Shown here: positions 9,863 through 33,368 of the stretch, piece by piece
Layout: each line of letters begins with the position of its first letter
Numbering within the stretch: the stretch's first letter is position 1
NCBI GenBank assembly: GCA_018816555.1
Contig: JAHIVT010000020.1
Coordinates: 1-44,266, forward strand
Source: Pseudomonadota bacterium
GTDB lineage: Bacteria > Desulfobacterota > Desulfobulbia > Desulfobulbales > SURF-16
Length of the DNA stretch: 44,266 nt
Reading direction: 5' to 3'
Translations under genes and position numbers: made by a program
The notes under the pieces: model-generated
Told to the model about the DNA's origin: nothing
Database searches by the model: none
The model's input: the letters and a program-made list of their open reading frames with translations, nothing else

Positions 9863-11755
9863 CTATTCAAGCTCCTTTATTTCATGAAAACCCTCGTCAT
9901 CGTCAAAAGGAATGAACTGGGCTGCCGGGGAAGACGGTTGACCGGATCGTTGCTTTCTTGCATCTCTCCCAGCCTGGTCTGGAACCGGCATAATCCTTTT
10001 TCCTGGCTGAGCCTGCCGGTCGTCGGACTCATTGTATCTCTTTTCTCTGGCAACACTCTTCCCATCCATCAATGTGGCCAGCAGGACAACGGTCTCCTGC
10101 ATCCTGTCGGACTGGGCGTTCAGTTCGTCTGAAGCGGCAGCCGATTCTTCCGCGCTGGCGGCATTATTCTGGGTGGAAAGGTTGAGTTCGGACACTGCAG
10201 TGTTGATCTGATCGATACCGGAATCCTGCTCCACAGAGGCACTGGCAATTTCAGCGATCAGGGCGGCAATCTTCTTGGAACTCTTCTCCACTTCACCGAA
10301 ATTGCTGTTGCAGTCGGTGGCGAGTTTCACCCCATCCTCGATGGTTCTGGCAGACTGATCGATGAGTGCCGAGGTATCTTTTGCCGCATTGGCGGCACGC
10401 AGGGCAAGATTTCGCACCTCATCGGCCACCACGGCAAAACCAGCCCCTGACGTACCGGCACGGGCGGCTTCCACCGCCGCGTTCAAGGCCAGCAGGTTAG
10501 TCTGGAAGGCGATTTCGTCGATTGTCTTAACAACCTTCTGAGTCTCCTGGCTGGTGCTGGCGATCTGTCCCATGGCACTGGTCAGCTGCAGCATGGAGCC
10601 GGATGAACGTGCCACCAATGTGTTTGATTCTTTCATCAATCCATCGGCATGATGGGCATTTTCCGCATTCTGTTTGGTCATGGCAGAGATCTCCTCAAGG
10701 GAAGAAGACGTTTCCTCCAGAGAGGCTGCCTGCTCCGAGGCCCCTTCCGCCAGGGTCTGGCTTGATGAGGCTACCTGATCGGCCGCCTGGGACACCTGTG
10801 AGGAGGCACTGCGCAGATCGGTGATAATCCGCTCAAGTGAACGGTAAATGGATTTGGATATGAAAAAATTGCCAATGATGCCGAAAAAGGTAAAGGCCAG
10901 TATGGTGATGATAATATAGTACAGATAGGTCCTGGTGGTTCCCAGCATGTTGGCTGTGTCTGCATCCGACTTGGCATTAATAGCGGTGAGTTCTTTTTTA
11001 AGCCGGTCCAGCGTGTTTGATTCAAGATCAAGACGTTTCTGGGTATTGTCGATAAAGACAAGGGTCAACTCCTGGATTTTCAGCGCGGCGTTTTTTGACT
11101 CCATCGCCATCGGCTGAAAGGGGGTGTTCGCCAGATCTTTGATGTCTTTATCCACGTTGACCAGTAAGGTCTCCAGGAAGGTGATCAATTTGTCCTTATT
11201 GGCGATATCGTAATTGAGCAGGGCAAATTGGTGTTTGATGCTGTAATTTGCCGAGGTGTTGACCATGGCGCCCTGGATGACAAGACGCTCCAGGGTGCTG
11301 ACCTCGTTTCGAAGTTGCTCATCCGCCAGCTTGGTGCTGACATCCGTGATGTAGCCGTTTGATTTGGAGATGGAAAAGTCGGTCAACTCATTGACCTGTG
11401 CGGTAATCTGCACATTCTGCTGGCGCAGGGCCTGAATCTGCTCAACATCCTGCCATATGACCGTCATTTCTTTTTCATGGCTGCCGGCAGAGGCTTTCCT
11501 GATGTCATCCAGCAATGGAACGACCGTCTCCCGCAGTGTGTCGTAAGATATCTTGCGACTCAGGTAGTTGGTGATGTGAAAGGTGGCGCTCTGCACCGAA
11601 GTGACGATCTTATCGGACTTTTCCTGATCAAGAGTCAGCCCGTTGATGACGGTGCGGGAATTGTATGCAAAGAAGCCGACGATGATTACCAGCACAATCA
11701 GGATAATGTTCGGGGTGAACAACTTTTGCTTGAGACTTAACTGTGATATCTTCAT
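9863..11755 (-). CDS. Methyl-accepting chemotaxis protein
   Basis: The 630-residue receptor has TM1 at about 14-31, a mostly helical periplasmic domain of about 245 residues, TM2 at about 278-298 and a cytoplasmic coiled-coil signalling domain. The hairpin tip reads [20 protein letters not shown], the highly conserved CheA/CheW contact site. The periplasmic domain is a helical four-bundle type by appearance; its ligand cannot be told. The start ATG follows GAGGAA. It is the last gene of a minus-strand run (response regulator, CheW, receptor) and ends just before the strong terminator. The C-terminus (FIPFDDDEGFHEIKELE) lacks an obvious aromatic CheR-docking pentapeptide. A cheA gene is not in this window. 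Confidence 0.94.
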   Translation of the reverse strand: MKISQLSLKQKLFTPNIILIVLVIIVGFFAYNSRTVINGLTLDQEKSDKIVTSVQSATFHITNYLSRKISYDTLRETVVPLLDDIRKASAGSHEKEMTVIWQDVEQIQALRQQNVQITAQVNELTDFSISKSNGYITDVSTKLADEQLRNEVSTLERLVIQGAMVNTSANYSIKHQFALLNYDIANKDKLITFLETLLVNVDKDIKDLANTPFQPMAMESKNAALKIQELTLVFIDNTQKRLDLESNTLDRLKKELTAINAKSDADTANMLGTTRTYLYYIIITILAFTFFGIIGNFFISKSIYRSLERIITDLRSASSQVSQAADQVASSSQTLAEGASEQAASLEETSSSLEEISAMTKQNAENAHHADGLMKESNTLVARSSGSMLQLTSAMGQIASTSQETQKVVKTIDEIAFQTNLLALNAAVEAARAGTSGAGFAVVADEVRNLALRAANAAKDTSALIDQSARTIEDGVKLATDCNSNFGEVEKSSKKIAALIAEIASASVEQDSGIDQINTAVSELNLSTQNNAASAEESAAASDELNAQSDRMQETVVLLATLMDGKSVAREKRYNESDDRQAQPGKRIMPVPDQAGRDARKQRSGQPSSPAAQFIPFDDDEGFHEIKELE

Positions 11756-11809
11756 AGTTCTATTCCTCTGTTGACAGTGATTTCCATCTTTCCCTCATGA
11801 TAGCAGATG

Positions 11810-12310
11810 TTATGCCACCTTTTCAAGCAAGGCCTGCAGATCTCCTTTATCAACGATTCTGTCAATGTCGATCAGAATCTTTACCTTTCCCTCCACTTTC
11901 GCCACACCAAGCAGATAGCTGCTGTTATCTGCTGAATCGACATTCGCGGTGTTCTCCACCTGTTTTTCATTGATCTGCAGCACTTCGGATACCGAATCAA
12001 CGATCATGCCGGTGGGCACCAGCCTATCTGCCCGGGCGACCTCCACCACGATGATGCAGGTCCTTTCACTGTCAGCCGGGCATGGCCTGTTCAACCGCAA
12101 ACGCAGATCAAGCACGGGGATAATACGATCGCGCAGGTTGATAACTCCCCTGTAATATTGTTTTTGCTGGGGAATCGCGGTAATCTCAGTCATGCCGATA
12201 ATTTCTTTGACTTTGTGAATCGGTATGCCATATTCCTCATTATTGAGATAAAAAGTCAGATACTTTTCTTCCTGATGTCTCTGCTGTGCACTTGATGTGG
12301 GGACACTCAT
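11810..12310 (-). CDS. cheW: Chemotaxis coupling protein CheW
   Basis: The 166-residue protein is a single CheW domain: KYLTFYLNNEEYGIPI at the start, VKEIIGMTEITAIP, then YYRGVINLRDRIIPVLDLR and the IIVVE strand. CheW bridges receptors and CheA at the inner membrane and so couples the adjacent receptor to a kinase. The ATG at 12310 follows AAGGAGAA at good spacing. It lies 54 bp upstream of the receptor gene and 11 bp after the response regulator gene, in one probable operon. The conserved Arg in RGVINLR, important for receptor coupling in the family, is present. A receptor-specific CheW is likely, given the gene order. Confidence 0.95.
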   Translation of the reverse strand: MSVPTSSAQQRHQEEKYLTFYLNNEEYGIPIHKVKEIIGMTEITAIPQQKQYYRGVINLRDRIIPVLDLRLRLNRPCPADSERTCIIVVEVARADRLVPTGMIVDSVSEVLQINEKQVENTANVDSADNSSYLLGVAKVEGKVKILIDIDRIVDKGDLQALLEKVA

Positions 12311-12321
12311 GATCGTTCTCC

Positions 12322-12816
12322 TTAATCCCAGCGTATAAAGAAGCGTGACATCCCCTTGAAAAATTTCTTATTCAGGCTCAGTCTTGTCTTGTTTTCTTCC
12401 TTCTTTTTACGCTTCTGTATATGATTAAACACCTCCAGAAGTTCCCGGTACTCAAAAGGCTTGATCAGATAATAAACCACCCGCTGCTCTCTCACCCGCT
12501 GTTCCATTTCTTTGCTGTTGCTGCCCGTCATTGCCACAAAAGCGGCTTCAGGGCATAAGTCCTTCAGTTCATTGATAAGGACGGCGCCATCGCCATCGGG
12601 CAGTAAAATGTCGGCGATGACAATGTCAAAGCGACTGGCTGCCGCCTTTGCCAGGGCATCATGACAGGTAAAGGCTGTTTCCGTGACAAAGCCTGCGCTG
12701 GTGAGAATGGCGGCGACAAGTCCGGCGACGTTTTCTTCATCATCGATAACGAGCACCCGCAATGGGTCATGTTGCTCAGCCGGTCTTTGATGCAGGGGAG
12801 ATTCTGAGGCGTGCAT
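12322..12816 (-). CDS. Single-domain response regulator with basic C-terminal tail
   Basis: The receiver domain covers about residues 18-138 of 164. Acidic pocket Asp25/Asp26, phosphoacceptor Asp69 (ADILLPDG), Thr97 and Lys119 are all present, so it should be phosphorylatable. A basic tail (KRKKKEE..., residues 135-155) follows and no output domain is visible. It could act as a CheY-like or phosphate-shuttle protein for the chemoreceptor operon or for one of the neighbouring hybrid kinases; the sequence does not decide. The start ATG has AAGGA upstream. It is the first gene of the minus-strand run with cheW and the receptor. The 272 bp upstream, before the sigma-54 activator, hold no clear promoter; a -24-like TGGCAT with a TGC after 9 nt instead of 10 does not qualify. 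Confidence 0.88.
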   Translation of the reverse strand: MHASESPLHQRPAEQHDPLRVLVIDDEENVAGLVAAILTSAGFVTETAFTCHDALAKAAASRFDIVIADILLPDGDGAVLINELKDLCPEAAFVAMTGSNSKEMEQRVREQRVVYYLIKPFEYRELLEVFNHIQKRKKKEENKTRLSLNKKFFKGMSRFFIRWD

Positions 12817-13088
12817 ATCTTCATCCTTATTCTTGCGGGAAGGATATCTGTCGCTTGAGTGTTATCACTGGTAATATCAATAAATATGCCATGGGCGGAT
12901 TACTTCTGCTAACATCCTGACACAAAACACTTTTCTGCATGAATATGCCAGGATGGCACGGGGGAAACCCCATAGACGGGATCGGACTAAAAGGGGGAAA
13001 AACAGAGGTTATCAATCAATAATTAGTTGATATCAAATAAGAAAAGCAGAAACAGGCAACAAATGGCATCTTTTCGGGCAAAAAAGCC

Positions 13089-14921
13089 CTATTTTTTCAA
13101 TTTCAGAAACCCATATTGTTTCATTTTGCGGTACAGGGTCTTGGGGTTTACCTTGAGGGCTGTGGCGGTGTTGCCTTGGTGCCATTTGTTATGCTGCAGG
13201 GCATTGAAGAGGATTTTTTTTTCAAATCTCTCCAGGGCCTCCTCATAGGTGAGCGCTTCCATGTTTTGGCTGGTATCGGCAAAAGGCTTTTCCTCGGCCG
13301 CATCGATGACGGTGCCCATGAAGTCAAGTTTTTTCAGGGTGACGAAACGATGCAGGGTGTTCTGCAGCTCCCTGACATTGCCGGGCCAGTCATAACTCTG
13401 CAAGGCCTTGATGATTTTCGGACTGACCGGAGGAACCTTATCAGGCTCATACTGGCTGAGGAAATGTTCGATGAGTAAGGGGATATCTTCCTTTCTTTCC
13501 CTTAAAAGGGGCAAGCAAATGGGAATGACATGAATCCTGTAGAGAAAATCCTGCCGCATCCGTCCCTGTCGCACCGCCTCCTTGAGATCACGGTTGGTGG
13601 CGGCAATAAAACGGACAGCAGGTCTTTTGATTTCCGCACCACCCACCGGGGTGAAACCATTGCCCTCGATGGCCCGCAGCAGCTTGATCTGCATGCTGAT
13701 GGGAATTTCGCCGATTTCATCAAGAAAAAGCGTGCCGCCATCCGCCATATCCAGGTAGCCGTGCTTATCATCGATGGCCCCGGTAAAGGCGCCCTTTTTA
13801 TGGCCAAAAAATTCACTCTCGAACAGACTCTCCGGGATGGCGCCGCAGTTGACATAAAAGAGCTTTTTGTTCTTTCTGTCGCTGTGTTCATGGATCGCCT
13901 TGGCCACCAGCTCTTTGCCGGTGCCGGATTCGCCATAGATGATCACGTTGACATCGGATGCGGCCGCATTGAGGATGAGTTCGTATACCTCCTGCATCTT
14001 CGGGCTTTTGCCGATGATGTCGCCGAATTTGTACCTATCGGTTAGAGAAGCCCGCAGTCGCATGTTTTCCTTGCGGAAATATTCTTCTCTTTCCTTGAGC
14101 TCCTGTTCCTTTTGCTTACGCTCGCTGATATCGTAAAACAGGATGAGACGCTGGTTCATCTCTCCCTGCTGATCAAAGATTGGGGTGTGGATAACATAAT
14201 ACCAGCGGTTGTCCACGCTGTTGTAAAATTCTTCCCTGATGCTCTGGCCTTCAACGGGAAGGCCTGTGTCCGCACACCAGGAACAGGGGGCAGTTCTCTG
14301 AAAGACAGCCTGATGACATATTTCCCCGGTGGCGTCCCTGCCGAGATACTTGAGCAAAAAGGCATTCATAAAGGTGATGCGGCAATGACGGTCACAAATA
14401 AAGATGAAGCCTTCAAATGACTCAATGATCGTGGAGAGCTTCTGCTCGCTCTGCTTCAGCGATTGCAGGGTGGCTTCAAGTTCCCGGGTACGCTGCTTGA
14501 CCTTCCCTTCCAGTTCCTGCTGATAACTGATATTTTCCCTGCCCAGCCGAGCCTTCTCCAGGGCCTGTTCCACGGAATACCTGAGCACCTCAAGCCGACT
14601 GACGGGTTTGGTATGGTAGTTCCAGGCGCCGAGCCGCAGCGCCCGGATCACGTCATCCATGCCGCCCTCACCGGAAATAACAATGACCGGGATATCCGGG
14701 GACTGTCGAGCCACCTGCTCCAGTACGGTAAAACCGTCAACCTGCGGCATGTTGAGATCAACGAGGATGATATCCGGTCTCTCCTCTGCATACAACGCCA
14801 GGCCCTCTCTGCCATCCAGCGCAGTTGATACGGCATAGCCGAGCCTTTGAAAGAACATGCTGATCAAGCTTAAAAAATTCTTATCATCGTCAATGCATAA
14901 CAGTTTGACTGCTTCGTTCAT
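13089..14921 (-). CDS. Sigma-54-dependent response regulator (REC-PAS-AAA-Fis HTH)
   Basis: The 610-residue regulator has a receiver domain (1-118; Asp11-13, phosphoacceptor Asp55, Ser83, Lys105), a coiled linker (about 125-165), a PAS domain (165-270), an AAA+ domain (298-525) and a Fis-type helix-turn-helix (about 568-608). The AAA+ part has Walker A GESGTGKE (330-337), the sigma-54 contact loop GAFTGA (377-382) and Walker B GGTLFLDE (395-402), so it should activate sigma-54 promoters as a phosphorylated oligomer. A PAS between receiver and AAA+ is less usual; it carries Cys202, Cys213 and Cys216 in a C-x10-CxxC pattern. The ATG overlaps the stop of the upstream hybrid kinase by 4 bp with AAGGAG before it, so the two are co-translated and probably partners. 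Confidence 0.94.
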   Translation of the reverse strand: MNEAVKLLCIDDDKNFLSLISMFFQRLGYAVSTALDGREGLALYAEERPDIILVDLNMPQVDGFTVLEQVARQSPDIPVIVISGEGGMDDVIRALRLGAWNYHTKPVSRLEVLRYSVEQALEKARLGRENISYQQELEGKVKQRTRELEATLQSLKQSEQKLSTIIESFEGFIFICDRHCRITFMNAFLLKYLGRDATGEICHQAVFQRTAPCSWCADTGLPVEGQSIREEFYNSVDNRWYYVIHTPIFDQQGEMNQRLILFYDISERKQKEQELKEREEYFRKENMRLRASLTDRYKFGDIIGKSPKMQEVYELILNAAASDVNVIIYGESGTGKELVAKAIHEHSDRKNKKLFYVNCGAIPESLFESEFFGHKKGAFTGAIDDKHGYLDMADGGTLFLDEIGEIPISMQIKLLRAIEGNGFTPVGGAEIKRPAVRFIAATNRDLKEAVRQGRMRQDFLYRIHVIPICLPLLRERKEDIPLLIEHFLSQYEPDKVPPVSPKIIKALQSYDWPGNVRELQNTLHRFVTLKKLDFMGTVIDAAEEKPFADTSQNMEALTYEEALERFEKKILFNALQHNKWHQGNTATALKVNPKTLYRKMKQYGFLKLKK

Positions 14922-17900
14922 GCCTGCTCCTTGGTGTCCAGGACCCGGCGGATGGCGCAGGCCAGCTGCTGCTTGATCAGAGGCTTCATGATAAATCGCC
15001 TGATCCCCAGTTGCCTTGCCCTCTCTTCATTGATAACTTCACTAAAGCCGGTACAGAGGATAATCGGGATGTCTGAACGGATGCGTAATACATGCTGCGC
15101 CAATACATCGCCGGTCATTTCCGGCATGGTCATATCGGTGATGATCAGGTCGAAATGATAAGGATTTTCCATGAACAGGTTCAGGGCCTCGGGGGAATTT
15201 TTTTCAGTGGTCACCTGGTAGCCCAGTTTTTCCAGCATCTTTTTATGGACTGTTAACAGTGCCACCTCATCATCCACAAAAAGGATCGATTCACTTCCCG
15301 TAGGGCAAGAAGCCGCGTCATCGTGCTGACTAACTGGATCGGCCTGGATGACGGGCAGAAAAATATCAAAGGTCGTCCCCTGCCCCGGTTCACTCAGGAC
15401 AGCAATGGCCCCCTTACAGTCTTTGACAATGCCGTGCACCACCGACAGACCAATGCCCGTTCCCTTGCCTTCCCCTTTGGTGGTAAAATAGGGGTCAAAT
15501 ATCTTTTTCATTGTCTCAGGTTGTATGCCATGGCCGGTATCGCGCACGGAAAGCTTGACATAAAGGCCCGGCACGATGTCCGGATGCAGGCGGGTGAAGT
15601 TTTCATCAAGGTCCACATCAACAAGATCGATATCGAGTTTGCCGCCATGTTCTTCCATGGCATGGAAGGCATTGGTGCACAAGTTCATCATGACCTGGTG
15701 AATATTGGTGGGATCCGCCATGACCACACTGTCGGAGAGAATATTATGATTGATGCTGATGGTGGATGGCAGTGAGGCCTTGAGCAGCTTGAACACCTCC
15801 TTGGCGATCAATTTCACCTGCACCGGTCTCGCTTCAACCTGCCGTTGCCGGCTGAACAGCAGAATCTGCTGCACCAGTCTCTTGGCCCTTTCAGCCGACG
15901 ACATAATCATCTGCAGATCATTCTTGATCTGCGGATTGTCCCCGGACTGCATCAGGGCCAGATCGGTGTAACCGAAAATACTTGAAAGAATATTGTTGAA
16001 ATCATGGGCAATACCTCCGGCCAGGGTGCCCAGTGCCTCCATTTTCTGGGCCTGGCGCAGCTTTTCCCCCATCTCGTTTTTTTCCTTTTCCGCCCGTTTG
16101 TTGTCGGTTATGTCTGTGATAAATCCTTCCAGCGCAACCACCTGGCCATCGTCTCCTGCAACAGCTGACCCCTGTTCCCAAACCCATTTTTCCTGGCCCT
16201 GGGAAGTGAGGATTCGGTAATTCAAGTGGTAAGAGCTATGCTGGTCAACCGCATTACGGATCTGCTGCCAGACCGAATCTCTATCGTCCGGGTGGATCAT
16301 ACTTTCATAGGATACATGCCGGTCATCTGTCAGTTCATCGGCGGTATAACCGGTCAAAATCTGACAGCCTTCGGAAACAACCTGCATGGTCCTGGATGCA
16401 AGGTATGCGCTACGGTAGGCCATGCCTGACAGGTTGGCGAGCAGATTGGCCAGTTTGCGTTCACTTTCACACAGGGCCTGCTCGGCCATAATCTTTTCGG
16501 TGATATCCCGGCCCAGGGCCATCAGAAAAGAAATTTCGCCCTGCTCATTTCTGATCGGCTTCAACATGAAATCAATAAAATGCAGTGTGCCGTCAAATCC
16601 AGGGTGGGTGACCTGAGACAGGACGTCCTCACCAACAGCGGCACGTCCTACGGCCTGGCGCAGCCACTCCTGTAGTTCCGGGGAATGGGCCCACCATCCG
16701 GTCTGCCAGAAGGGTTTGCCGAGAACATCCTCTTTGCGGGCGTTGATGAGCTGCAGGGCCGCGATATTGGCATCGAGAATGACCCCATCCAGAGTAAGGA
16801 AACCGAAAAGCTGAAAGGTCTGGTCAATAATGGCCCGGTATTTTCTCTCTCTTTCCCGCAGAGACATGTTCATGACAGCCTGTTCAATGCCCAGGGCTAA
16901 CTGGTCGGCAATGGAGGCCAGGGCCGTGGTAACCGTGTCGGTCAACACATGGCGGGAAAACAGACCCATTACCCCGACGACATTTTCGTTGATGAGCAGA
17001 GGGTGGCCGGCAAAGGAAACCATGCCTTCCCGTTTGGCCCACTCCTGGTCGGTGATATGCGGATCGCCGATAACCGCATTGGTCAGCAGCGGTTTTCGGT
17101 TCATGGCAATGATGCCGATCTTGCTGCTGCCATCAATGGCTTTTTTGCAGTGTTCTCCGTTGATACGGGTGTAAAGACCGGCACTGGCCTGCAGTTCCAG
17201 CAGATTGGATTCCTTGTTGACCAGCCAGATGCGGGCAAAGGCGGCATGGAGATGTTTGACTAACAAGGCACAGCAGTCCTGCAGGGTCGGCCTCAGATCT
17301 CCACCGCTGGTCAGCACAACCCCCACCTCCGCGCCCAGGGTCAGAACGGTGAGCTGCTCGGCCAGCAGCTTTTCATCTCGTTTGCGGGCGGTGATGTCCC
17401 GCCAGACCACATGCAGAATCTGCCTCCCCCCATCAGGAATGGCTGTCAGCAGCACCTCCACCGGAAAATCTTCTCCATCCGCCCGCTGATGTATCCACTC
17501 AAAGCGGTGACAGCCATGGGCCAAGGCCATTGCCATCATCTCCTCGGCCTTTTCATAAGACAATCTGCCGTCCGGCTGCCTCTGCGGAGACAACTCCGCA
17601 GGATGGGTCTGCAGGATATGAGCCTTATCGGTATAACGCAGCATGTCCACCGCGGCATTGTTGCAGTCAACCTGGTAACCATCATGCAGGATAAACATGG
17701 CATCAGCCGAGTTTTCAAAGAGAGCCCGATACTTGCTCTCGCTTTTCTGTATAGTGTTCAAGTTCTGCAGCCGGTCGTCAGCCCTCTGCCGCAGGGTATC
17801 TTCCAGGAGCATCCGTTCCTGGATTTCTTTCTCAAGATTTTTTTTGATTCTCTCGTAGTAATTGAGAATCATGCCCATGGCCGAGGTGAGGAACAGGACC

Positions 17901-18448
17901 GACACCAGCAGGTAGCCCCAGGGGGCAAACCACGGCACCTGGCGGAGAAAGGGATAATCCGCAGTATGGAGTCCCCAGAAGATCAGGGACCAGCCGAAAA
18001 CCTGTTTTCCCGCCCCTTTGATCCGATGATGGCGCAGAAAGACAAAACCGGACCAGATGTAGACCCCGCCCAGAAAAAACGAGGTGGCAATATTCTGGGC
18101 GATAAAAGAAAAACCGGCCAGACTGGCGATCAATGCCCAGCCGGCGACAGCTCCTGCGCCGTAGAGCCAGAGCCTGGGAAAATCTTTATCAAGAAACTGA
18201 TAGGTTCCCCAGATGAAAAAAATGGCGCTGCTGATTGACGCGGCATGATGGCCCAGAATCATCCAGGGCGGCATAATGTTATACAAGATGGCCAGATGGA
18301 TGACAAACCTGCATGCATAAGCGCTCCAGCTCAGGAACCAATACAAGAGAAATCGCTCCCTTTCCCGATAAAACAAGTAGAGAAAGGTCAACGAGACAAT
18401 GATCGCCGCATTAAGGGTAGCAATGAGAGCGGGAGTCAGCCAATCCAT
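14918..18448 (-). CDS. Membrane hybrid histidine kinase (7TM-PAS-GAF-PAS-PAS-HisKA-HATPase-REC)
   Basis: The 1176-residue kinase opens with about seven hydrophobic helices (1-205) of a membrane sensor type that I cannot name. A coiled coil (205-240), PAS (about 240-355), GAF (about 370-520), two PAS domains (about 530-655 and 655-785), a HisKA domain with phospho-His815 in GGIAHDFNN, a HATPase domain (about 905-1025) and a C-terminal receiver with Asp1105 in TDMTMPEMTG follow. It senses an unknown cue and probably relays phosphate to the sigma-54 regulator whose gene overlaps its stop by 4 bp. The start has GGAGAA upstream. The second PAS, with a WWAHSPELQEWLR segment, is strikingly like one in the divergent kinase at 18884-22324. 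Confidence 0.93.
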   Translation of the reverse strand: MDWLTPALIATLNAAIIVSLTFLYLFYRERERFLLYWFLSWSAYACRFVIHLAILYNIMPPWMILGHHAASISSAIFFIWGTYQFLDKDFPRLWLYGAGAVAGWALIASLAGFSFIAQNIATSFFLGGVYIWSGFVFLRHHRIKGAGKQVFGWSLIFWGLHTADYPFLRQVPWFAPWGYLLVSVLFLTSAMGMILNYYERIKKNLEKEIQERMLLEDTLRQRADDRLQNLNTIQKSESKYRALFENSADAMFILHDGYQVDCNNAAVDMLRYTDKAHILQTHPAELSPQRQPDGRLSYEKAEEMMAMALAHGCHRFEWIHQRADGEDFPVEVLLTAIPDGGRQILHVVWRDITARKRDEKLLAEQLTVLTLGAEVGVVLTSGGDLRPTLQDCCALLVKHLHAAFARIWLVNKESNLLELQASAGLYTRINGEHCKKAIDGSSKIGIIAMNRKPLLTNAVIGDPHITDQEWAKREGMVSFAGHPLLINENVVGVMGLFSRHVLTDTVTTALASIADQLALGIEQAVMNMSLRERERKYRAIIDQTFQLFGFLTLDGVILDANIAALQLINARKEDVLGKPFWQTGWWAHSPELQEWLRQAVGRAAVGEDVLSQVTHPGFDGTLHFIDFMLKPIRNEQGEISFLMALGRDITEKIMAEQALCESERKLANLLANLSGMAYRSAYLASRTMQVVSEGCQILTGYTADELTDDRHVSYESMIHPDDRDSVWQQIRNAVDQHSSYHLNYRILTSQGQEKWVWEQGSAVAGDDGQVVALEGFITDITDNKRAEKEKNEMGEKLRQAQKMEALGTLAGGIAHDFNNILSSIFGYTDLALMQSGDNPQIKNDLQMIMSSAERAKRLVQQILLFSRQRQVEARPVQVKLIAKEVFKLLKASLPSTISINHNILSDSVVMADPTNIHQVMMNLCTNAFHAMEEHGGKLDIDLVDVDLDENFTRLHPDIVPGLYVKLSVRDTGHGIQPETMKKIFDPYFTTKGEGKGTGIGLSVVHGIVKDCKGAIAVLSEPGQGTTFDIFLPVIQADPVSQHDDAASCPTGSESILFVDDEVALLTVHKKMLEKLGYQVTTEKNSPEALNLFMENPYHFDLIITDMTMPEMTGDVLAQHVLRIRSDIPIILCTGFSEVINEERARQLGIRRFIMKPLIKQQLACAIRRVLDTKEQA

Positions 18449-22902: not shown

Positions 22903-25900
22903 TCAGCCCGCATTCAATACCTCTCTTACCAGCCTGGCAAGTTGCTTGCCACCGAAAGGTTTATGCACCAGTTTCCGGATACCGGCTTCCATCGCCTTTT
23001 CCTCGGAAATGGCCGAACTGTATCCGGTGCAGAGAATGATCGGCATATCAGGCCGGACCCTGAGAACCTCTCCGGCCAGTTCCGTTCCACACAGGGAGGG
23101 CATGGTCTGGTCGGTTATGATGAGGTCGAAACCGTCCGGCGCTGCCTGAAAATAGCTCAAGGCAATTCCGCTGTCTGTGGTTGCCGTCACGTGATAGCCA
23201 AGCGCGGCTAGGGTATTTTTCTGCAGGCTGACGATTGCCGCTTCATCATCAACGAGCAGTATGCGCTCGTTTCCCCTTTGCAGAATCTCTTCAACCTCTC
23301 CGGCGATCACCGCCTGTTTTGCATCAGTGACCGGGAAATAGACGCGAAAAATGGTCCCTTTATTTCTTTCACTTTCAAACTTGATGATCCCTCCGCAACT
23401 TTTGACGATGCCATGTACAACTGCCAGTCCCAGACCTGTTCCTTTGCCGTTTCCCTTGGTGGTGAAATAGGGTTCAAAGACCCGTTCCATTGTTGCCTTG
23501 TCCATGCCATGCCCCGTGTCACTGATCATCAATTCGACAAAGGAACCGGCTGCAACATGCTGATACTCCATGATCTCCTCGGCAGTTAAGTCCTTGTGCA
23601 ACAGCGTGACCGTCAAAACTCCCCCGGTATTTTCCATGGCATGAAAGGCATTGGTGCACAGGTTCACCACCACCTGCTGTATTTTGGTCGGGTCCGCCAG
23701 AATTGTCCCACTTTTCTTATCAATATTTTCCCTGATTTCAATGGTTGCCGGCAAGGTTGACCGAATAAACCGCAAAGACTCCTTAACAATATAATGCGGC
23801 GATACGGGCAGCAGTTTCTGTTTGCCTTTCCTGCTGTAAGCCAGAATCTGTCGGACCAGTTCCCTCGCCCGATAGGATGCCCGCAGCACCTGATTAAGCT
23901 CATCGACCGGCCGCTCTCCCTTCACTACCGCATCCCTGGCTATCTCGGCAAAACCGATGACCGGGGTGAGAATATTGTTGAAATCATGGGCAATGCCGCC
24001 GGCCAGGGTGCCGATGGCCTCCATCTTCTGGGATTGCAGCAGCTCTTCCTCAAGTTTTTTCTGCTCGGTGATATCAGTGGCCACATGGATCAGATACTCT
24101 ATATTATTGTTCTTGTCGAAAATCGGTGAGGTTGACACCTTAAATATTCTGCCCAGTTTCTCGTGCCTGATAATCTCGCAATGATTGAGCATGTCCTGCA
24201 GAGACAACTGCACCGGGCAACCCGGACAGGGTTCACCTCTGCCACTGAAAAATTCATAACAGAACCTGCCGGTCAGTTCTTTCTTGTCAGTGTTAAAAAA
24301 ACGGCTGGCAGCTTCATTTGCTTTAACGATCCGCATGTTTTTATCCTGCAAGGTAATAATGTCATGAATGGAATTAAAGGTCCTTTCCCATTCCTCCTTG
24401 CTGCGGATCAACCGCCTTTCAGCCTCTTGCTTTTCCGTTATATCTTCAAAGACAGCGACAACTTCCGCGGTGGGCAGCTTGAAAACATAAATCTCCAGCC
24501 ACAGCAGGATGTCGTCTTTTTTAAAAATTGACTGGGGATGATATTCAGGATTGCCTGTCTTCCATACCCGTTCGAACACTTCCAATACTCCCATGGATTC
24601 GACCCATGGCAGGACATCCCTGATGCTTTTGCCGATAATTTTCCCTTTGTCCAGCTCGACACTCTGCAAGGCAGCCCGGTTCATGTCTTTAAAGATGAAA
24701 TCCCTGCCGTCATCTATCGCTTCGCAGATGGCAACTCGCTTGCGCATGTTCTCGAATAATTCCCGCAGCTGAAATTCACTCTTTTTCAGGGCCAGCTGAT
24801 ATTTCTGCCGCTCGCAATTTTCTCTGAACAGTTTTTCATGGGCGTCCACCGCCTTTTCGGCCGTTTCCTGCAGTTCCTTATTAATTCGCATCAGCAGCAT
24901 TACATAGCCGAAAAAGAGAATCGCGATGAGAACAAAAATGATGCCGATAATCTTATAGATTATCCGGTAAGGAGCAAACGCTTCGTCTGTCTCGATTTCA
25001 AAAGCCAGACCGAAATCAAACTGCTGATCCCATGTCCATGCCCCGACAACCATGACTCCGCGATAGTTCCTGTATCCGTCCACATTGTATCCCTGTTCTT
25101 TTGAGGCAATGGCCTGCCGGGCCATATCGGTCAGGGGCAGCTGCTGCCTGGCCAACCTGGGTTTCCCCCGGGTCGGCACAGTGCCCAAGGGATTGCCCAA
25201 TCTGAAGGTCACGCTGCTTTTTTCCGCAGCGTCGATCAATTCCATCCGTCGCAGGTCATCGGTAAAACGGCATTCGCTGATCATGTTGCCTGCTCCGTCA
25301 AAAGCATAGCTGTCACCGGTTTTGCCCGTCCAGGCCCCCTGCATGATCCTGCTCACCTCACTGGGACTTATCTGGAATATCAGCGCTGCGTTGATTGAGC
25401 CGGTAGGGGAGATAATCGGCGCACCGATAAACATGGCTGCACCGGTGGTAAACGAGGTACCGGACGTTTCATGCCGGAATATTCTGGTCTGCACAGGTAA
25501 AAGCAGAGTGGTCTTGCCTTGAAAGATGTCGGACAGGAAGGCTCTCTGGTCGGCAAAACGGCTTGTATCGCCGATATTTTCATCAAATAACGAGGCGATG
25601 ATGCTGCCGTTGGCCGTGATGATGAAAAAATCATAATCCTGATGATATTGAATGACCGGTCGCAGCATCAGCCGTATTTCCGCAAGCGCCGGATGCTGCA
25701 GGAATTCCTGACCGGTCAGATTGGACACCTGTAAAGTCTCAACCAGACGGATGAAATCAGAATCATGGGCAATGCGGGTGGTATTTTCAAAATGGTGCAA
25801 GATCCATTCATGGATGGCGTTATGGGTTACGCCGAGCACCGTGGTCAGCCCTTCCTTCACCCCGGTCTTGAATGAATTGCCCAGCTCTCCCAGGCCCTTC

Positions 25901-26007
25901 CATACCACCGCTCCCACGAAGAGAAGAACCACCAGACCTATGACGATTCCCCGGTCACAGATATTTTTTCCGAAAAGAGCCGGCATTTTCCGGGCGTTTA
26001 TCGTCAT
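22903..26007 (-). CDS. Membrane hybrid histidine kinase with Cache-type sensor (PAS-PAS-HisKA-HATPase-REC)
   Basis: The 1034-residue kinase has TM1 (about 20-38), an extracytoplasmic Cache-like domain of about 300 residues (DYDFFIITANGSIIAS, TGDSYAFDGAGNMI), TM2 (about 350-372), PAS1 (about 400-520), PAS2 (about 530-650), HisKA with His674, a HATPase domain (about 770-885) and a receiver with Asp966 ([10 protein letters not shown]). Cache domains usually bind small metabolites. PAS2 has Cys583-x10-Cys594-x2-Cys597 in CPGCP form, the same cysteine spacing as the 13089-14921 regulator. It lies 43 bp after the HBM chemoreceptor on the same strand. Its ATG has only a weak ribosome site (GAAAGATGA). 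The PAS1 closely resembles one in the kinase at 30579-33368. Confidence 0.92.
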   Translation of the reverse strand: MTINARKMPALFGKNICDRGIVIGLVVLLFVGAVVWKGLGELGNSFKTGVKEGLTTVLGVTHNAIHEWILHHFENTTRIAHDSDFIRLVETLQVSNLTGQEFLQHPALAEIRLMLRPVIQYHQDYDFFIITANGSIIASLFDENIGDTSRFADQRAFLSDIFQGKTTLLLPVQTRIFRHETSGTSFTTGAAMFIGAPIISPTGSINAALIFQISPSEVSRIMQGAWTGKTGDSYAFDGAGNMISECRFTDDLRRMELIDAAEKSSVTFRLGNPLGTVPTRGKPRLARQQLPLTDMARQAIASKEQGYNVDGYRNYRGVMVVGAWTWDQQFDFGLAFEIETDEAFAPYRIIYKIIGIIFVLIAILFFGYVMLLMRINKELQETAEKAVDAHEKLFRENCERQKYQLALKKSEFQLRELFENMRKRVAICEAIDDGRDFIFKDMNRAALQSVELDKGKIIGKSIRDVLPWVESMGVLEVFERVWKTGNPEYHPQSIFKKDDILLWLEIYVFKLPTAEVVAVFEDITEKQEAERRLIRSKEEWERTFNSIHDIITLQDKNMRIVKANEAASRFFNTDKKELTGRFCYEFFSGRGEPCPGCPVQLSLQDMLNHCEIIRHEKLGRIFKVSTSPIFDKNNNIEYLIHVATDITEQKKLEEELLQSQKMEAIGTLAGGIAHDFNNILTPVIGFAEIARDAVVKGERPVDELNQVLRASYRARELVRQILAYSRKGKQKLLPVSPHYIVKESLRFIRSTLPATIEIRENIDKKSGTILADPTKIQQVVVNLCTNAFHAMENTGGVLTVTLLHKDLTAEEIMEYQHVAAGSFVELMISDTGHGMDKATMERVFEPYFTTKGNGKGTGLGLAVVHGIVKSCGGIIKFESERNKGTIFRVYFPVTDAKQAVIAGEVEEILQRGNERILLVDDEAAIVSLQKNTLAALGYHVTATTDSGIALSYFQAAPDGFDLIITDQTMPSLCGTELAGEVLRVRPDMPIILCTGYSSAISEEKAMEAGIRKLVHKPFGGKQLARLVREVLNAG

Positions 26008-26050: not shown

Positions 26051-27973
26051 TTAGAAATTCACGTATCCTTCTTCCAGGGGAATGATTACTTCCGGTTTCA
26101 GTTTCCCCCCTTCCTGCACATCGTGCCTTTTTCTTTCCACGGCGGCGGGTGAAGATTTCAACCATCTGCGGGCCGCTTTCTTCGGGGCAAAACGAGTCCC
26201 TTCGATCATGGCTGCTTTCTGGTGGGCTCTCCCGCCGACCATCTCCACCAGTTCAGCAACCATGTCCTGCATCTGCCCGGCCTGGGCGTTGAGTTCCTCA
26301 GAGGCGGATGCAGATTCCTCGGCATTGGCTGCGTTCAGCTGAATGACCTTGTCAATCTCACCCACCGCAATATTCAGCTGCTTGACTCCCTCGGCCTGTT
26401 CCTTGGACGCAGCAGCGATTTCACTGACAAGTTCACCCACCTGCCCCGTGGTTGTTGCCACCTGCTCAAAAGCGGTATTGGTTTTTTCAACCAGTTTCGA
26501 GCCGACCTGCACCTTTTTCACCGTTCCCTCAATCAGCTCCGCCGTGACCTTGGCCGCCTCGGCAGACCGCAGGGCGAGGTTTCTCACCTCTTCGGCAACA
26601 ACCGCAAAACCGGCGCCGGCCTCTCCGGCCCTTGCCGCTTCCACTGCGGCGTTCAATGCCAGAAGATTGGTTTGAAAGGCAATCTCATCAATGGTCTTCA
26701 CCACCTTCTGGGTTTCCGAACTTGACCTGTACAGCTCTTCCATTGATACGGTGAGTTCATTCATCGATTCGTTGGCCTGGTCGACAACCACTCTCCCCTC
26801 TTTTGTTTTGTTTGCCGCCTGCTGGGCATTCTCCGCATTCTGCAGTGTCATGGAGGACATCTGTTCAAGACTGGCGGATGTTTCCTCAAGGGATGACGCC
26901 TGCTCCGATGCCCCTGCGGCCAGTGACTGGCTTGCGGCAGATACCTGGGTTGAGGCTGAGGCCACCTGATCAGCACCATCCTTGAGCCCTGCTATGATTC
27001 TGGTAATGCTTTTGGTGATGCCCGTGATAACAAAAAATGAAAGAACAACGCCTATGAGAGTTGCCGCCCCGGCAGTGCTTATCATCACACTGTTGGCCAC
27101 GGTGATCTGGCTTTCCCTTTTTGCATCCTGGTCAGCGGTGGCTGCCGCGCATTCTTCCTCGACCTTGCGGGCCGCCTTGACCATGATGCCGCTTGCCTCG
27201 TTCTGTTCAGCCGCCAGCAGCGCGAACTGATCAAAGGCCTGTTTATACTGACCGACTGCAACCATTACCTTGTCAATCTCTTCAATGTTATGGGCCGTAT
27301 TGAAACGGGACTTGAGGTCTTTTGACATATCAAGAATTTTCACCAGCCCCTCATCAACCTTATCAAGCCACTGCTGCTCAGCGCTGATGATATATTCCTT
27401 TTCATGCTCCCGCGCCGCAAGAAACCATCTGACGATCAGATCGGCATCATCAGCCTTGGCCAGTCTGTCATCTATCTGAGACTGATCATTAAGCTTACGC
27501 GCCTCAGATAGCTGCGCCATCAGGTCGGCATCGATGGTGCCCAATGCATTCATAGCCGTCAGAGCTCCTTGACCCATCGTATTCAGGGCTACAGTTTTTT
27601 GCCTCGATAAATCCACATAGGTGTCAAAGGCATTGCCGTAGTCCTTCACCTCCCTGATCACCTGCTCCATCTGATCCTGGTTGATCTTCTGTTTAAATCT
27701 CCCTTTGGTCTCCTCAGCCTCTTTTTTGATTTTTTCAAGCTGCCCATGTACTTTATCAATATATGCAGTGTCTCCGCGCATGATGAAATTTTTCTCGTGC
27801 TGCCGGGCAATCAATATATCCTTTGCCAGGGTGTCAACCGCATCAGCTTTTCCCACCCTGTCCACCACCCCACGCATGCCGGAATATCCCACGCCCGCCA
27901 CAATACAGACGAGAACAATTAATACGACTGCGATGCTTGCTATTTTTGTCCCCAACTTCATCTTGTTGAACAT
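26051..27973 (-). CDS. Methyl-accepting chemotaxis protein with HBM-type ligand domain
   Basis: The roughly 640-residue receptor has TM1 (about 9-28), a 265-residue periplasmic all-helical domain, TM2 (about 294-318), a HAMP-like linker and a signalling hairpin with [20 protein letters not shown]. The periplasmic domain holds two matching helix motifs, [13 protein letters not shown] and [13 protein letters not shown], as expected for the two bundles of a helical bimodular (HBM) domain, which in McpS-type receptors binds organic acids; the ligand here is unknown. The C-terminus GYVNF fits the aromatic CheR-docking pentapeptide pattern, so it may be a tethering receptor. Start ATG 27973 follows GAGG; a GTG at 27979 is also in frame. 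The kinase gene lies 43 bp downstream. Confidence 0.93.
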
Positions 27974-28268
27974 CTGCACACCTCACTGTAAGAAAATAAT
28001 GGGTTGGCCAGCAGCCATCGGTGGTTCATGACGATTTAATAAACGTGCACGTAACGATTACCCCGGATAAAATCTTCATGGCTTCACTGTTTCTGGACAC
28101 TCTTTTATGGGATCTGCAGGTCCAGACAAACCTGGCTAGGCCGGCGAACTTCCTTGTTCTGTTAACCCGCAGACTAATACTCAACAGGTATACCTGAACA
28201 GGTAGCGAATAAGGGGTCCGAAATTCATCATTTCTGCATGAAGCATCAGCATTAAGTCATTTCATTTG
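27974..28268. other. 295-bp intergenic region upstream of the HBM chemoreceptor
   Basis: No gene is supported. It contains a perfect 12-bp palindrome CAGGTATACCTG (28185-28196) followed at once by a further CAGGTA half site (28199-28204), a possible operator for the receptor transcript. No sigma-28 or sigma-54 promoter match was found by eye. Confidence 0.4.
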
Positions 28269-28669
28269 TTACTCATTTTTCTGATCGTTTTTCCTTTTTC
28301 TTAACCATTTCAAATGCTTTATAACCGCAACAACATCCTCAAACTGTGTATCCGGGTAAGATATAAAACGAGGTCTCAGCCGATGGCACCTGGCAATCAT
28401 GTCATCGTCGATATATGGAAGAATGAGGATGACAAAAACACTCTCAAGGAGCTTTTAAAAGGAGAGAAGCCCGTCCGGATCATATCCATGCTGCACGCAG
28501 AAGATACCGATCCCCACATCCACTGCCCTGCAAAAAAACTTTCCGCCGACTGGGAAATCTCGTTGCACTCAATCAACTGACCGGAATCGATTATTTTTTC
28601 TATCTTCTGCCGAAGATGATTGCCGTATTCCAAAAAATCATTTGCAAAGAGCAGAACCGCACTCCACAT
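28269..28669 (-). pseudogene. Decayed gene for a small receiver-like protein (frameshift plus nonsense)
   Basis: Reading the minus strand from ATG 28669 (Shine-Dalgarno AAGGA) gives WSAVLLFANDFLEYGNHLRQ and continues to a run of seven T (28532-28538). Adding one base there moves into a frame reading RAVDVGIGIFCVQHGYDPDG, which meets TAA at 28455-28457 and then stays open for 61 more codons through ILILPYIDDDMIARC, RLRPRFISYPDTQFEDV and a lysine-rich tail to a natural TAA at 28269-28271. The restored protein has about 132 residues and an alternating beta-alpha pattern like a receiver domain without the phosphoacceptor. From memory, proteins with an LRPRF..YPD segment of this size occur in deltaproteobacteria; their role is unknown to me. 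A sigma-54 promoter lies just upstream. Confidence 0.7.
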
Positions 28670-28712
28670 TTTTCCTTAACAATATAGGAAAATTACATAT
28701 GAGTTATGGTAA

Positions 28713-28729
28713 ATGCCAGTTACGTGCCA
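28713..28729 (-). promoter_or_regulatory. Sigma-54 (-24/-12) promoter
   Basis: The minus strand reads TGGCACGTAACTGGCAT: a perfect -24 TGGCACG and a GC exactly 10 nt after the GG, as the sigma-54 consensus demands, with TGGC for TTGC. Transcription would begin near 28702, about 33 nt before the ATG at 28669. Confidence 0.7.
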
Positions 28730-28824: not shown

Positions 28825-28850
28825 ACAGTGTCAACTAAAGTTGACACTGT
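28825..28850. promoter_or_regulatory. 12+12 bp palindrome, likely enhancer site of a sigma-54 activator
   Basis: ACAGTGTCAACT and AGTTGACACTGT are perfect reverse complements separated by AA. The centre is about 135 bp upstream of the predicted sigma-54 start near 28702, the usual distance for an NtrC-family enhancer, and an NtrC-type regulator gene ends 146 bp away. A hairpin terminator for that regulator is the alternative; the following sequence on the minus strand is T-rich only after a GC-containing gap. Confidence 0.55.
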
Positions 28851-28995: not shown

Positions 28996-30384
28996 TCAAT
29001 GTGAATGAGATATGCTGTGTTTTTCCAGAAGCTGATAGAGCCTTGTTCTTGACAGTCCAGATGCCCGGCTGGCGGCCTGAATATTTCCTGCCACATGCAC
29101 GATGAGATCCTGAACATATTTTTTCTCAAAGCTATCCCGGGCTTCCCGCCACACGGGAAAAGCTCCCGGGCTGCATGGCTGCAGTTGCGGTGTGCCCGAG
29201 GCCTCTCCCCTGACATTCATCCTGGCATGGAGGATGCGGATCCTCTCCGGCAGATGCAGGGCAAACAGCTTCGGGCTATGGAAAGCCTCGGTAAAAACAT
29301 GATCCAGTACGCGGAACAACTCTCTGACATTACCGGGCCAGTCATAATTCATCAATGCCTCGACAAACTCATCTGAATAATTTTTGCGCGCCTGACCGTA
29401 TCGTTCACACAGGGCCTTGATACAGTAGTCGGTCAGATCCCTGATATCCCCGAGCCGTTCCCGAAGAGGGGGGATATTGATGGCGCAAGACTCAATGCGG
29501 AACAGCAGATCCCGACGGAAACTTCCCTGTTCCGCCATGGCATGGAGATCACGGTTGGTTGCGGCGATAAGCCTGAAATCACTGCTGATCTCATGAATGG
29601 CGCCCACAGGTCGGAAAGATTTTTCCTCCAGTACCCGCAGAAAGGCCTTTTGCATGTCAAAAGGGAGCTCGCCGATTTCATCGAGAAAAAGAGTACCGCC
29701 GTCAGCCTGTTTGATCAGACCCTTGTTCGGTTTTGAAGCATCAGTGAAAGCACCCTTTTCATGCCCGAAAAGCGTCGTCTCCACCAGTTTTTCCGGCAGG
29801 GACGCGCAGTCAACCACCACAAAATTCTTCTTTGCCCGGTTGCTGTTTTCGTGGATGGTACGGGCAAACACCTCCTTGCCGGTGCCGGTTTCCCCGGTTA
29901 TCAACACATTGGCGTCATTATTTGCCACCTTGACCACATGGTCCAGACATTTGACAATCTGCGGGCTGCTGCCGATCAGATTATTTCGTTTTAAGCGAAC
30001 GGCGGCTGTCTTGTTCTTTTCACTGCGGTATTGAAGAGCACGGGTCAAGGGCAGGATCAGATCCCTGATGATGGTTGGCTTTTCCAGATAACACCATGCC
30101 CCGCTCTTGATGGCGAGTTCAGCGCCGTCAGGGTCCCCCGCTCCGGTTATGATGATGATCTCCGGAGATGAGGAGACGGCCTTCAGCCTGGGAAGAATCT
30201 CCAGGCCATTGCCGTCGGGCATGCGGACATCAAGGAATATGATGTCATAGTTACCGGCAAGCGACTTTTCATAGGCATCTCTGAGGGTATGAACACTTGC
30301 ACCGGTATGTCCCAGTCTGGTGATCTTTTTTTCAATAGCACCGCAAAGAAGTTCATCATCATCAACGATCAGAATATCTGCCAT
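28996..30384 (-). CDS. NtrC-family sigma-54 response regulator (REC-AAA-HTH)
   Basis: The 462-residue regulator begins MADILIVDDDELL. The receiver domain has Asp8-10, phosphoacceptor Asp52, Thr80 and Lys102. The AAA+ domain has Walker A GETGTGKE (164-171), the sigma-54 contact loop as GAFTDA (211-216) in place of GAFTGA, and Walker B GGTLFLDE (229-236). A Fis-type helix-turn-helix closes the protein (about 432-456). The GAFTDA form is known to me from a subgroup of such regulators, so I do not call it broken. The ATG at 30396 is an alternative start but AAGG touches it directly. It is divergent from the 30579-33368 hybrid kinase, its likely partner, and its gene ends before the palindrome and sigma-54 promoter it probably serves. 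Confidence 0.93.
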   Translation of the reverse strand: MADILIVDDDELLCGAIEKKITRLGHTGASVHTLRDAYEKSLAGNYDIIFLDVRMPDGNGLEILPRLKAVSSSPEIIIITGAGDPDGAELAIKSGAWCYLEKPTIIRDLILPLTRALQYRSEKNKTAAVRLKRNNLIGSSPQIVKCLDHVVKVANNDANVLITGETGTGKEVFARTIHENSNRAKKNFVVVDCASLPEKLVETTLFGHEKGAFTDASKPNKGLIKQADGGTLFLDEIGELPFDMQKAFLRVLEEKSFRPVGAIHEISSDFRLIAATNRDLHAMAEQGSFRRDLLFRIESCAINIPPLRERLGDIRDLTDYCIKALCERYGQARKNYSDEFVEALMNYDWPGNVRELFRVLDHVFTEAFHSPKLFALHLPERIRILHARMNVRGEASGTPQLQPCSPGAFPVWREARDSFEKKYVQDLIVHVAGNIQAASRASGLSRTRLYQLLEKHSISHSH

Positions 30385-30578
30385 CACTACAATCATCCTT
30401 GATCAATAAGAAGAGGCACGAAAAATTTTTAATATATCTCTTATAGCAAATTACGGTATCATACTCATCAGAATTTCATATTTTTATCGATTGCCCCTCC
30501 TTTCAGCATTTCCGGCAGACTGAAACACTTGGGGAAATCAATGTTTTTTATTGCGGCTGTGCCGTCGGGGGAAGTGAG

Positions 30579-33368
30579 ATGGACAAGATCGAAAACGAAC
30601 TCCAGGAATTAAAAATTAAGAATAAACTGTCACGGGTTTTTCTTACCATGCCGGATGAAAAACTGTACCCGGAGATCCTGAAGATCGTGGTCAAAGCCTT
30701 CAAAAGCCAGTTCGGCATATTCGGCTATTTCGATGAATATGGGGCATTCGTTATCCCAGCCATAACAACCTCAACTTACTGGGATCAATGCCGGGTGGCC
30801 GACAAAAATATTATCTTCGGCAAAGCGGATTTCTGCGGGGTCTGGGAAAAGGCCATTGCGAGAAAAAAGACCTTTTTTGTCAATAGTGGTCCGTTCCGCA
30901 CCCCGGCAGGTCATATCCCCATCGACAATACCCTGGTTTCGCCCATCATTTTCAGGGGTAAGATCATCAGCGCCATTCACGTTGCCAATAAAAGCGGGGG
31001 TTATGACGAGGAAGACACCAGACTTCTGGCCAGCCTGACGGATTATCTGGCTCCGGTGCTGGCCGCCCGGCTGGAACGGGATAAAACGGAAAGGGATCTG
31101 AAAAACTCCGAAGAACTGCACCGCATCACCGTTGAAAACATTGCCGATCCCGTATTCATCACCGATGATGATGGTAATTTCATCCATGTTTACGGCAATG
31201 TCGGCCACGTCCTGGGCTATTCAGTGGCGGAGATCCAGGCCATGGGCAATATAAAACACCTGGTGGACGGCAATCTTTTCGATGCAGAGGAACTCAACCG
31301 CGCAAGAGAAATCCGCAACATCGACAGCATCCTGCTGGACAAGAACGGTGACAAACATTATTTCCTGACCAATATCAAGAAGCTAGCGATCCATAAGGGC
31401 TCCATTCTTTTTACCTTTCATGAGATTACCGAACACAGGCGGGCCCTCGACGCCCTGCATAAAAGCGAATATCAGTTCAGAGAACTCTTTGATAACATGA
31501 GCAATGGTGTTGCCATTTTTGCTGCGCTGGATGACAGCGGCAGCTTTGTGGTGAAAGACCTCAACCGTTCAGGGTTGAAAATCATCCAATTAAACAAAGA
31601 GGAGGTCATCGGCCGAAATGCCCGTGCTGTTTTACCCGGCCTGGAGGAGACCGGGCAGTTTGAGATCCTGCGGCGGGTATGGAAAACAGGGGTGCCGGAA
31701 CATCATCCCCTGTGCCGCTATCAGGACAAGCGCATCAGCGTATGGATTGACAACTATGTATTCAAACTGCCGTCCGGGGAGGTTGTTTCGGTTTACGATG
31801 ACATCACCGAACGGATCATGGCGGAGGAAGAAGTAAAACGCAATGAAGAAAAATTCCGTCGTCTGCTGGAGTCGACCTTTACTGTGCCGTGGGAACTGGA
31901 CCTGGCCAGTGAAAAATTCACCTTCATGGGCAATCAGATTGAAACCCTGCTGGGTTACCCGGCCGGCTCCTGGGTGGATATGCAAACCTGGATCGATCGT
32001 CTGCATGATGACGATCGGCAACAGGCGGTGAATTTCTGCAGGGAACAGACCGGCAAAGGAAAAGATCACGATTTTACCTACCGGGCGGTTCATGAAAACG
32101 GTTCGACACGATGGATTCAGGATGTTGTTTCCGTGGTGCAGGGTGAAAACGGCCCGGAAAAACTTGTCGGCTTTCTCTACGATATTACGGATAAAAAAAT
32201 GGCCGAGGAGGCGAAAGCCAAACTGGAGAGGAAACTCCGCCAGTCCCAGAAAATGGAGGCCATCGGCACCCTGGCCGGCGGAATTGCCCATGACTTCAAC
32301 AATATCCTGGGTGTCATCATCGGCTACACCGATATGGCGATTGAAGATACCCATCCGGATTCCGCCTGTGTCAAGGATCTGGAGCATGTACTGAAGGCCG
32401 GGTACAAGGCCAAAGATCTTGTCCAGCAGATTCTTGCCTTCAGCCGCCAGGCAAAGGTAAAGCGTTTTCTGCTCCAACCCCAGCCTATTATCAAGGAAAC
32501 ACTCAAAATGCTCCGCTCTTCCATTCCGACGACCATCGAAATCCGGCAGGACATAGATCCTGAATGCGGCGCAGTCTATGCCGACCCGACCCAGATCCAT
32601 CAGATTCTGATAAATCTCTGCACCAATGCCTATCATGCCATGGAAGAAAAAGGCGGGATCTTACGGGTTGAACTGAAAAGGGCGGAATTAAATGGGATGG
32701 ATTTCCCCGAATATCCCTCCCTGAAAACAGGATCTTATGTGGAACTCCTGGTGCGTGATACAGGAGCGGGAATTGATCCGGCCATCAAAAACAGAATTTT
32801 CGATCCCTACTTTACCACCAAGCAGACAGGCAAGGGAACAGGCCTGGGACTTGCCATTGTCCACGGCATCATAAGGGATTACGGCGGGGCGATCCGGGTC
32901 AAAAGTGTGCCTGGAAAAGGCACGGCCTTTCACATATTCCTCCCCGCCTCACCGGAAAAGGCCCTGCCGCAGGATGAAGGGGCAGCAGTCTTGCCATCAG
33001 GCACAGAGCGGATACTTTTTGTCGATGACGAGGAAATGATCGCCGATATGGGCAAGAATATGCTTGAAAGATTGGGCTATAGTGTAACCACCCAGGTCAA
33101 CAGCTTTGAGGCCTTGCAGACCTTCCGCATCAATCACGATCAGTTTGATCTGATCATCACCGATCAAACCATGCCAGGCATGACCGGCGCCGAACTGGCC
33201 GGGGAAATGCTGCACATCCGGCCCGACATCCCGATCATTCTCTGTACCGGCTACAGCAGCATCATCTCCGAGGAAAAGGCAAAGGCCATCGGCATCAGGG
33301 AGTTTCTCATGAAGCCGATCGTTAAAAAGGATATCTCCCGGCTTATCAGAAAAGTGCTGGACACCTGA
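30579..33368 (+). CDS. Cytoplasmic hybrid histidine kinase (GAF-PAS-PAS-PAS-HisKA-HATPase-REC)
   Basis: The 929-residue kinase has no membrane helix. An N-terminal GAF-like domain (about 20-165, with [20 protein letters not shown]), three PAS domains (about 180-290, 297-420, 427-550), HisKA with His571 in GGIAHDFNN, a HATPase domain (about 665-780) and a receiver with Asp862 in [10 protein letters not shown] follow. It probably senses a cytoplasmic signal and passes phosphate through its receiver. The ATG follows ggggaagtgag. The 182-bp divergent region before it carries an imperfect dyad (TTTCAG at 30501-30506 and CTGAAA at 30520-30525) that might be a control site. Its middle PAS is a close relative of PAS1 in the kinase at 22903-26007 (both have a VWKTG.PE.HP segment). 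It converges on the YkgJ-like gene. Confidence 0.93.

Follow-up and report, generated by a model that had tools for sequence, protein, structure and literature searches.

A probable recently decayed pseudo-receiver gene at the head of a predicted sigma-54-switched operon, and its family in Desulfobacterota

The minus strand of the window analysed here (the whole stretch of 44,266 nucleotides) almost certainly holds a decayed gene broken by a frameshift in a T7 run and by an in-frame TAA (Table 1). This gene very probably encoded a stand-alone pseudo-receiver, died recently, and stood first in an operon that is predicted to be switched through sigma-54 by the NtrC-type regulator encoded upstream.

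Table 1. Positions of the decayed gene, its lesions, its control elements and the neighbouring genes in the window.
Feature	Position	Strand	Basis
Decayed pseudo-receiver gene (predicted)	28269-28669	-	Two lesions: T7 frameshift and in-frame TAA
5' part of decayed gene, first frame, ATG to T7 run	28532..28669	-	Sequence and homology
3' part of decayed gene, second frame, with family motif (ILILP...CHRLRPRF in the window)	28269..28531	-	Homology, profile
T7 run, site of frame shift	28532..28538	-	Sequence; intact relatives stay in one frame across this point
In-frame TAA, second frame	28455..28457	-	Sequence; relatives align across the TAA ungapped
Shine-Dalgarno AAGGA	28673..28677	-	Sequence
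Putative sigma-54 (-24/-12) promoter TGGCACGTAACTGGCA, 44 bp upstream of ATG	28714..28729	-	Motif scan
Perfect palindrome ACAGTGTCAACTttAGTTGACACTGT, 12-bp arms, predicted upstream activating site of the NtrC-type regulator	28825..28850	.	Sequence
NtrC-type response regulator (receiver and sigma-54 AAA+), intact	28996..30396	-	Pfam; tree
Methyl-accepting chemotaxis protein (MCP), HBM (helical bimodular) sensor domain, intact, downstream in predicted operon	26051..27979	-	Pfam
Cache/PAS hybrid histidine kinase, downstream of MCP	22903..26007	-	Pfam; Cache match below curated cut-off
GAF/PAS hybrid histidine kinase, divergent from regulator	30579..33368	+	Pfam

The decayed gene starts at a minus-strand ATG (28669-28667) preceded by AAGGA. 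Its first frame closes at a stop at 28397, giving 90 amino acids, and its second frame runs to a natural stop at 28271-28269. The ATG, the Shine-Dalgarno, the natural stop, the T7 run and the TAA had all been pointed out in the original prediction and are present in the sequence, while the restored length given there (about 132 residues) has to be adjusted to 133 positions with the stop counted as X. Searched in this form, the read-through protein found as its best match an intact 137-aa protein (residues 5-126, 31% identity, E 1.6e-11), and further intact relatives matched at E of about 1e-7 in genomes of the same order. The relatives are encoded in a single frame, are about 120-140 aa in length and cover both frames of the window's gene, and the alignment with them crosses both lesions without a large gap. 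A profile built from intact relatives only (n = 10) recovered the post-TAA piece in the window (4.2e-14), and a wider 43-member profile recovered the window copy (3.3e-17), bearing out the proposal that a single decayed gene extends across the two frames. When scored by leave-one-out, the read-through protein reached 77 bits and ranked 73rd of 82, which is within the range of the intact members and indicates that the decay is recent. A search of the genome with the profile found no second copy of the gene elsewhere, and the locus has what is expected of a pseudogene: intact homologues span its disabling lesions, and the genome carries no functional copy at another place.

Two readings would dispense with decay altogether. 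The 90-aa ORF of the first frame (28397-28669), which has both the ATG and the Shine-Dalgarno, might be a real but shorter gene with spacer behind it. However, relatives run on into the second frame and do not end at the first-frame stop, and the out-of-frame tail beyond the T7 run finds no support in the family. Given that homologues span both frames, a short gene was rejected as having next to no likelihood. It could also be imagined that programmed frameshifting or slippage during transcription joins the frames of a living gene at the T7 run, which the first frame reads as T_TTT_TTT and which thereby allows a -1 slip, but the shifted frame hits the TAA ahead of the conserved half of the protein and none of the relatives examined is frameshifted at the T7 point. 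This possibility was likewise rejected, and we regard it as scarcely credible.

The family to which the decayed gene belongs is widespread. Profile search detected members in 67 of the 258 genomes of the order (the same 258 were sampled by a search at class level) and, at E 1e-6, in 52 of 395 genomes that had been sampled evenly over the phylum, covering 43 of 245 genera. Named members come from Desulfogranum mediterraneum DSM 13871 and from Desulfobulbaceae MAGs (four named loci in a narrower alignment), which puts the window within Desulfobulbales or close to it; members are mostly single-domain proteins of about 120-150 aa. No Pfam or NCBIfam family model was found for the pieces in the window or for up to 43 intact members scanned; one of the 43 matched Response_reg of Pfam weakly (E 0.004), and the first member had no Pfam match. 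A sequence search against solved structures returned weak matches only, mostly to designed proteins, and no description of the family was found by literature searches. The resemblance to an uncharacterised protein type of deltaproteobacteria suggested in the original prediction agrees with this spread of members in Desulfobacterota and with the lack of a family model.

AlphaFold was given four sequences, the D. mediterraneum member and three relatives, and returned for this member a mid-confidence model (mean pLDDT 74) with alternating strands and helices. In Foldseek the top matches were the atypical receivers of TadZ/CpaE (PDB 4dad, 4lda and 4dn6; E 9e-5 to 1e-3, 12-17% identity), with response regulators next, and in VIA many receivers aligned over about 110 residues with Z of about 12; nearly all Foldseek and VIA matches of the modelled member were receivers. 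The family fold is predicted to be the CheY-like (beta-alpha)5 fold of receivers. This assignment rests on the AlphaFold model because no similarity to ordinary receivers is detectable by sequence profiles, a profile-profile comparison (hhalign) of the family with NtrC receivers having given no significant similarity.

The chemistry of a receiver is absent from the family. In a profile alignment of 82 sequences, columns 53-58, where a phosphoacceptor Asp would stand at the end of beta3, are 0% acidic, acids in beta1 reach at most 17%, Lys in beta5 reaches at most 2%, and Pro dominates the end of beta4, where Thr/Ser would be. The conserved positions in this alignment are P84-D85, H95, P99-R100 and D106, and an acidic residue at column 60 is loosely conserved (39%). 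The predicted fold and the missing catalytic residues thus uphold the earlier description of a receiver-like order without a phosphoacceptor. A phosphorylated single-domain response regulator of the CheY/Spo0F type, serving the adjacent kinase, would be in keeping with the predicted receiver fold and with the kinase neighbours. However, the Asp at the end of beta3 that marks a canonical single-domain response regulator is not there, acids in beta1 and Lys in beta5 are lacking across the 82-sequence alignment at the frequencies given above, and the acidic residue at column 60 is too variable, which leaves such a regulator highly improbable. The suggestion that the product was a response partner of the adjacent kinase-regulator pair does not hold up in the sense of phosphotransfer, for the same reason: such a partner is unlikely because the family lacks the phosphorylation chemistry required, and in our view a sigma-54-switched accessory protein fits better.

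By the definition of PMC12632262, structure and residues together predict a stand-alone pseudo-receiver: the fold (predicted) and the absence of catalytic residues are both found, and recognition by receiver sequence models is not. Given that these sequence models fail to recognise a receiver, we describe the proteins as a separate, unannotated PsR-like family and not as members of PF00072. Aspartate-less and pseudo-receivers comprise PF00072 members without active-site residues together with PF06490, PF21155, PF21194, PF21695, PF21714 and PF22368 (PMC12632262). The present family has in common with these reviewed proteins the same (beta-alpha)5 fold, as predicted here, and the lack of phosphorylation chemistry, but it stands alone, is unmatched by their Pfam models (the single weak Response_reg match aside) and carries its own conserved LPD...GHxLxPRF..D motif.

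The large genes flanking the decayed gene in the window are intact by Pfam, and the divergent GAF/PAS hybrid kinase is likely to be the kinase partner of the cassette. The surroundings of other family copies, delimited with a simple gene caller, are of the same kind. Among the 38 order loci that are informative because the copy lies clear of a contig edge, the next large gene upstream encoded an NtrC-type sigma-54 regulator in 32, and did so on the same strand in 30; ten of the order loci in these counts had also built the profile. Outside the order such a regulator stood directly upstream in 17 of 38 phylum loci (from 40 loci). In many relatives hybrid kinases lie on the upstream side of the regulator. 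The check named in the original prediction, whether relatives adjoin an NtrC regulator and hybrid kinase, thus came out in its favour: the regulator is found beside them, and in many cases the kinase too. In a regulator tree, the window's regulator grouped, with support of 1.0, with 18 regulators that adjoin intact copies. The next same-strand gene downstream of family copies most often encodes an MCP or CheW, and elsewhere GGDEF proteins or kinases; as downstream genes vary, any model with a single partner is weakened. Two family copies lie within 8 kb of each other in one genome (G143; L082, 2628-2999 and 10148-10510, minus strand), each preceding an MCP gene, which suggests local duplication of the cassette.

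The putative promoter ahead of the decayed gene is the only -24/-12 site with one or no mismatch in 44 kb. It is placed upstream of the first gene, as in a sigma-54-dependent operon, and rpoN is present in the window's genome. Intact copies have a sigma-54 site of the same type and at the same position upstream. With scoring weights of our own choice, a sigma-54 score of at least 20 was reached upstream at 23 of 41 order loci as against 1 of 205 control genes, and a score of at least 18 at 26 of 40 phylum loci as against 17 of 180 controls; for the order set plus the window, a rank test of the enrichment gave p 5e-20.

Farther upstream, about 177 bp from the ATG, the palindrome is the natural candidate for the binding site of the regulator. 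A search with it found near-matches at about 180-195 bp ahead of the intact gene at the loci with the closest regulators; counterparts stand at about 180 bp in the two closest-matching loci, and the remaining five loci of the related regulator clade have weaker ones. The generic pattern TGT..AC....GT..ACA was modestly enriched in the order (4 of 41 loci, 1 of 198 controls) and was not seen in phylum loci outside it. Within the order, the window's own palindrome is more telling than the generic pattern. Regulator, putative promoter and predicted target operon very probably form a sigma-54 cassette.

The predicted cassette has outlived the gene. The window keeps the regulator, the palindrome, the sigma-54 site and the downstream MCP, and the dead gene is the pseudo-receiver alone. 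Profile search found no intact family copy in the window's genome or in five congeners. One of these congeners (G005; L108, 3999-7528) has a kinase, an NtrC-type regulator and an MCP in the same order with no pseudo-receiver gene between regulator and MCP; its regulator is 50-52% identical to that of the window, it has two MCP genes, and 231 bp lie between the regulator and the first MCP. Given that the G005 regulator and the window's regulator stand apart in the tree, this cassette may be a cousin rather than an exact ortholog. The original prediction had spoken of a gene lost in this strain: the loss itself stands, but its restriction to the strain does not, as none of the five congeners has a copy and G005 carries a similar cassette without the gene.

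Copies with stops were also seen in two other genomes. In G064, a family copy with several stops (L113, about 6150-6420, plus strand) lies between MCP and hybrid kinase genes and is an independent decayed copy. In G458, a copy (L141, about 4640-4970, plus strand) has a single in-frame stop just ahead of the C-terminal helix that the family conserves, which might have arisen by a recent nonsense mutation. Combined with the absence from congeners, these stop-bearing copies suggest that loss of the gene is recurrent and tolerated.

They also bear on whether the lesions in the window are errors of sequencing or assembly, a homopolymer miscall and a second error, in a gene that is intact in life. 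The T7 run is a typical miscall site, its lesion alone could be a sequencing error, and the remainder of the product is still family-like. However, there are two separate lesions, the TAA is a clean stop and lies in no long run, the neighbouring large genes are intact, and loss appears to be common because independent decayed-looking copies occur in two other genomes and the five congeners have no gene. Errors are on this evidence very unlikely, and we retain the reading of a decayed gene.

As to function, we tentatively propose, as a reading that is plausible but falls somewhat short of probable, that cassettes of kinase, NtrC-type regulator and sigma-54 promoter supply a phylum-wide family of Desulfobacterota pseudo-receivers, which would serve as an abundance-only accessory switch acting on the output of chemoreceptor/CheW or other signalling systems and be lost repeatedly with the rest of the cassette staying. 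In what we regard as the likeliest mechanism, the hybrid kinase would phosphorylate the NtrC-type regulator, the phosphorylated regulator would bind the palindrome, and the bound regulator would make RNA polymerase-sigma-54 transcribe the pseudo-receiver gene together with that for a chemoreceptor, CheW or other signalling protein. The pseudo-receiver would then act through its presence or level, and not through phosphorylation, by binding a partner, which might be the chemoreceptor/CheW complex or, in a feedback, the kinase or the regulator; contact would be made via the face bearing the conserved LPD...GHxLxPRF..D residues. This accessory binding role is a possibility that we put forward with a little more reserve than the scheme as a whole. 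Level-based action agrees with one model listed for CmrT (PMC12632262, section 19). In the window the operon has lost its first product, and its transcript may still yield the MCP.

In TadZ/CpaE proteins, the receivers are joined to an ATPase of the MinD/ParA type. Being the closest Foldseek matches of the family and thought to position pili, they raise the alternative that the pseudo-receiver sets the subcellular position of the chemoreceptor complex rather than tuning signalling, with which the frequent presence of an MCP or CheW gene next to it would agree. However, hundreds of receiver structures score almost equally, and the family protein has no ATPase domain attached; by contrast with TadZ/CpaE, it occurs alone, in chemosensory and regulator loci. 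Positioning is in our judgement unlikely, and a level-based accessory protein is the reading that we prefer.

How bacterial pseudo-receivers are switched on and off is an open question (PMC12632262). In CmrRST of Clostridioides difficile, the atypical response regulator CmrT is co-encoded with the kinase CmrS and the regulator CmrR (PMC12632262), and the likeness that serves us as a working idea is of a two-component system that supplies a receiver protein, itself independent of phosphorylation, through raised expression. By contrast with CmrT, which is an OmpR-family regulator, the present family has the receiver-like domain only, and its promoter is predicted to be of the sigma-54 type. The sigma-54 regulome of Desulfovibrio vulgaris, as set out in the main text of PMC4641369, is comparable in that many NtrC-type two-component regulators act on sigma-54 operons in a deltaproteobacterium; a term search of that main text found no methyl-accepting proteins and no stand-alone pseudo-receiver of this kind.

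A pseudogene is ordinary in itself, but this one leads to a widespread family that has no Pfam or NCBIfam model and has a clear regulatory address. Its copies often follow a sigma-54 regulator and precede a chemoreceptor, and its losses spare the rest of the cassette, which makes an expression-level mechanism directly testable. The window also contains a second chemosensory cluster on the minus strand (9863-18448), with an MCP, CheW and further large signalling genes.
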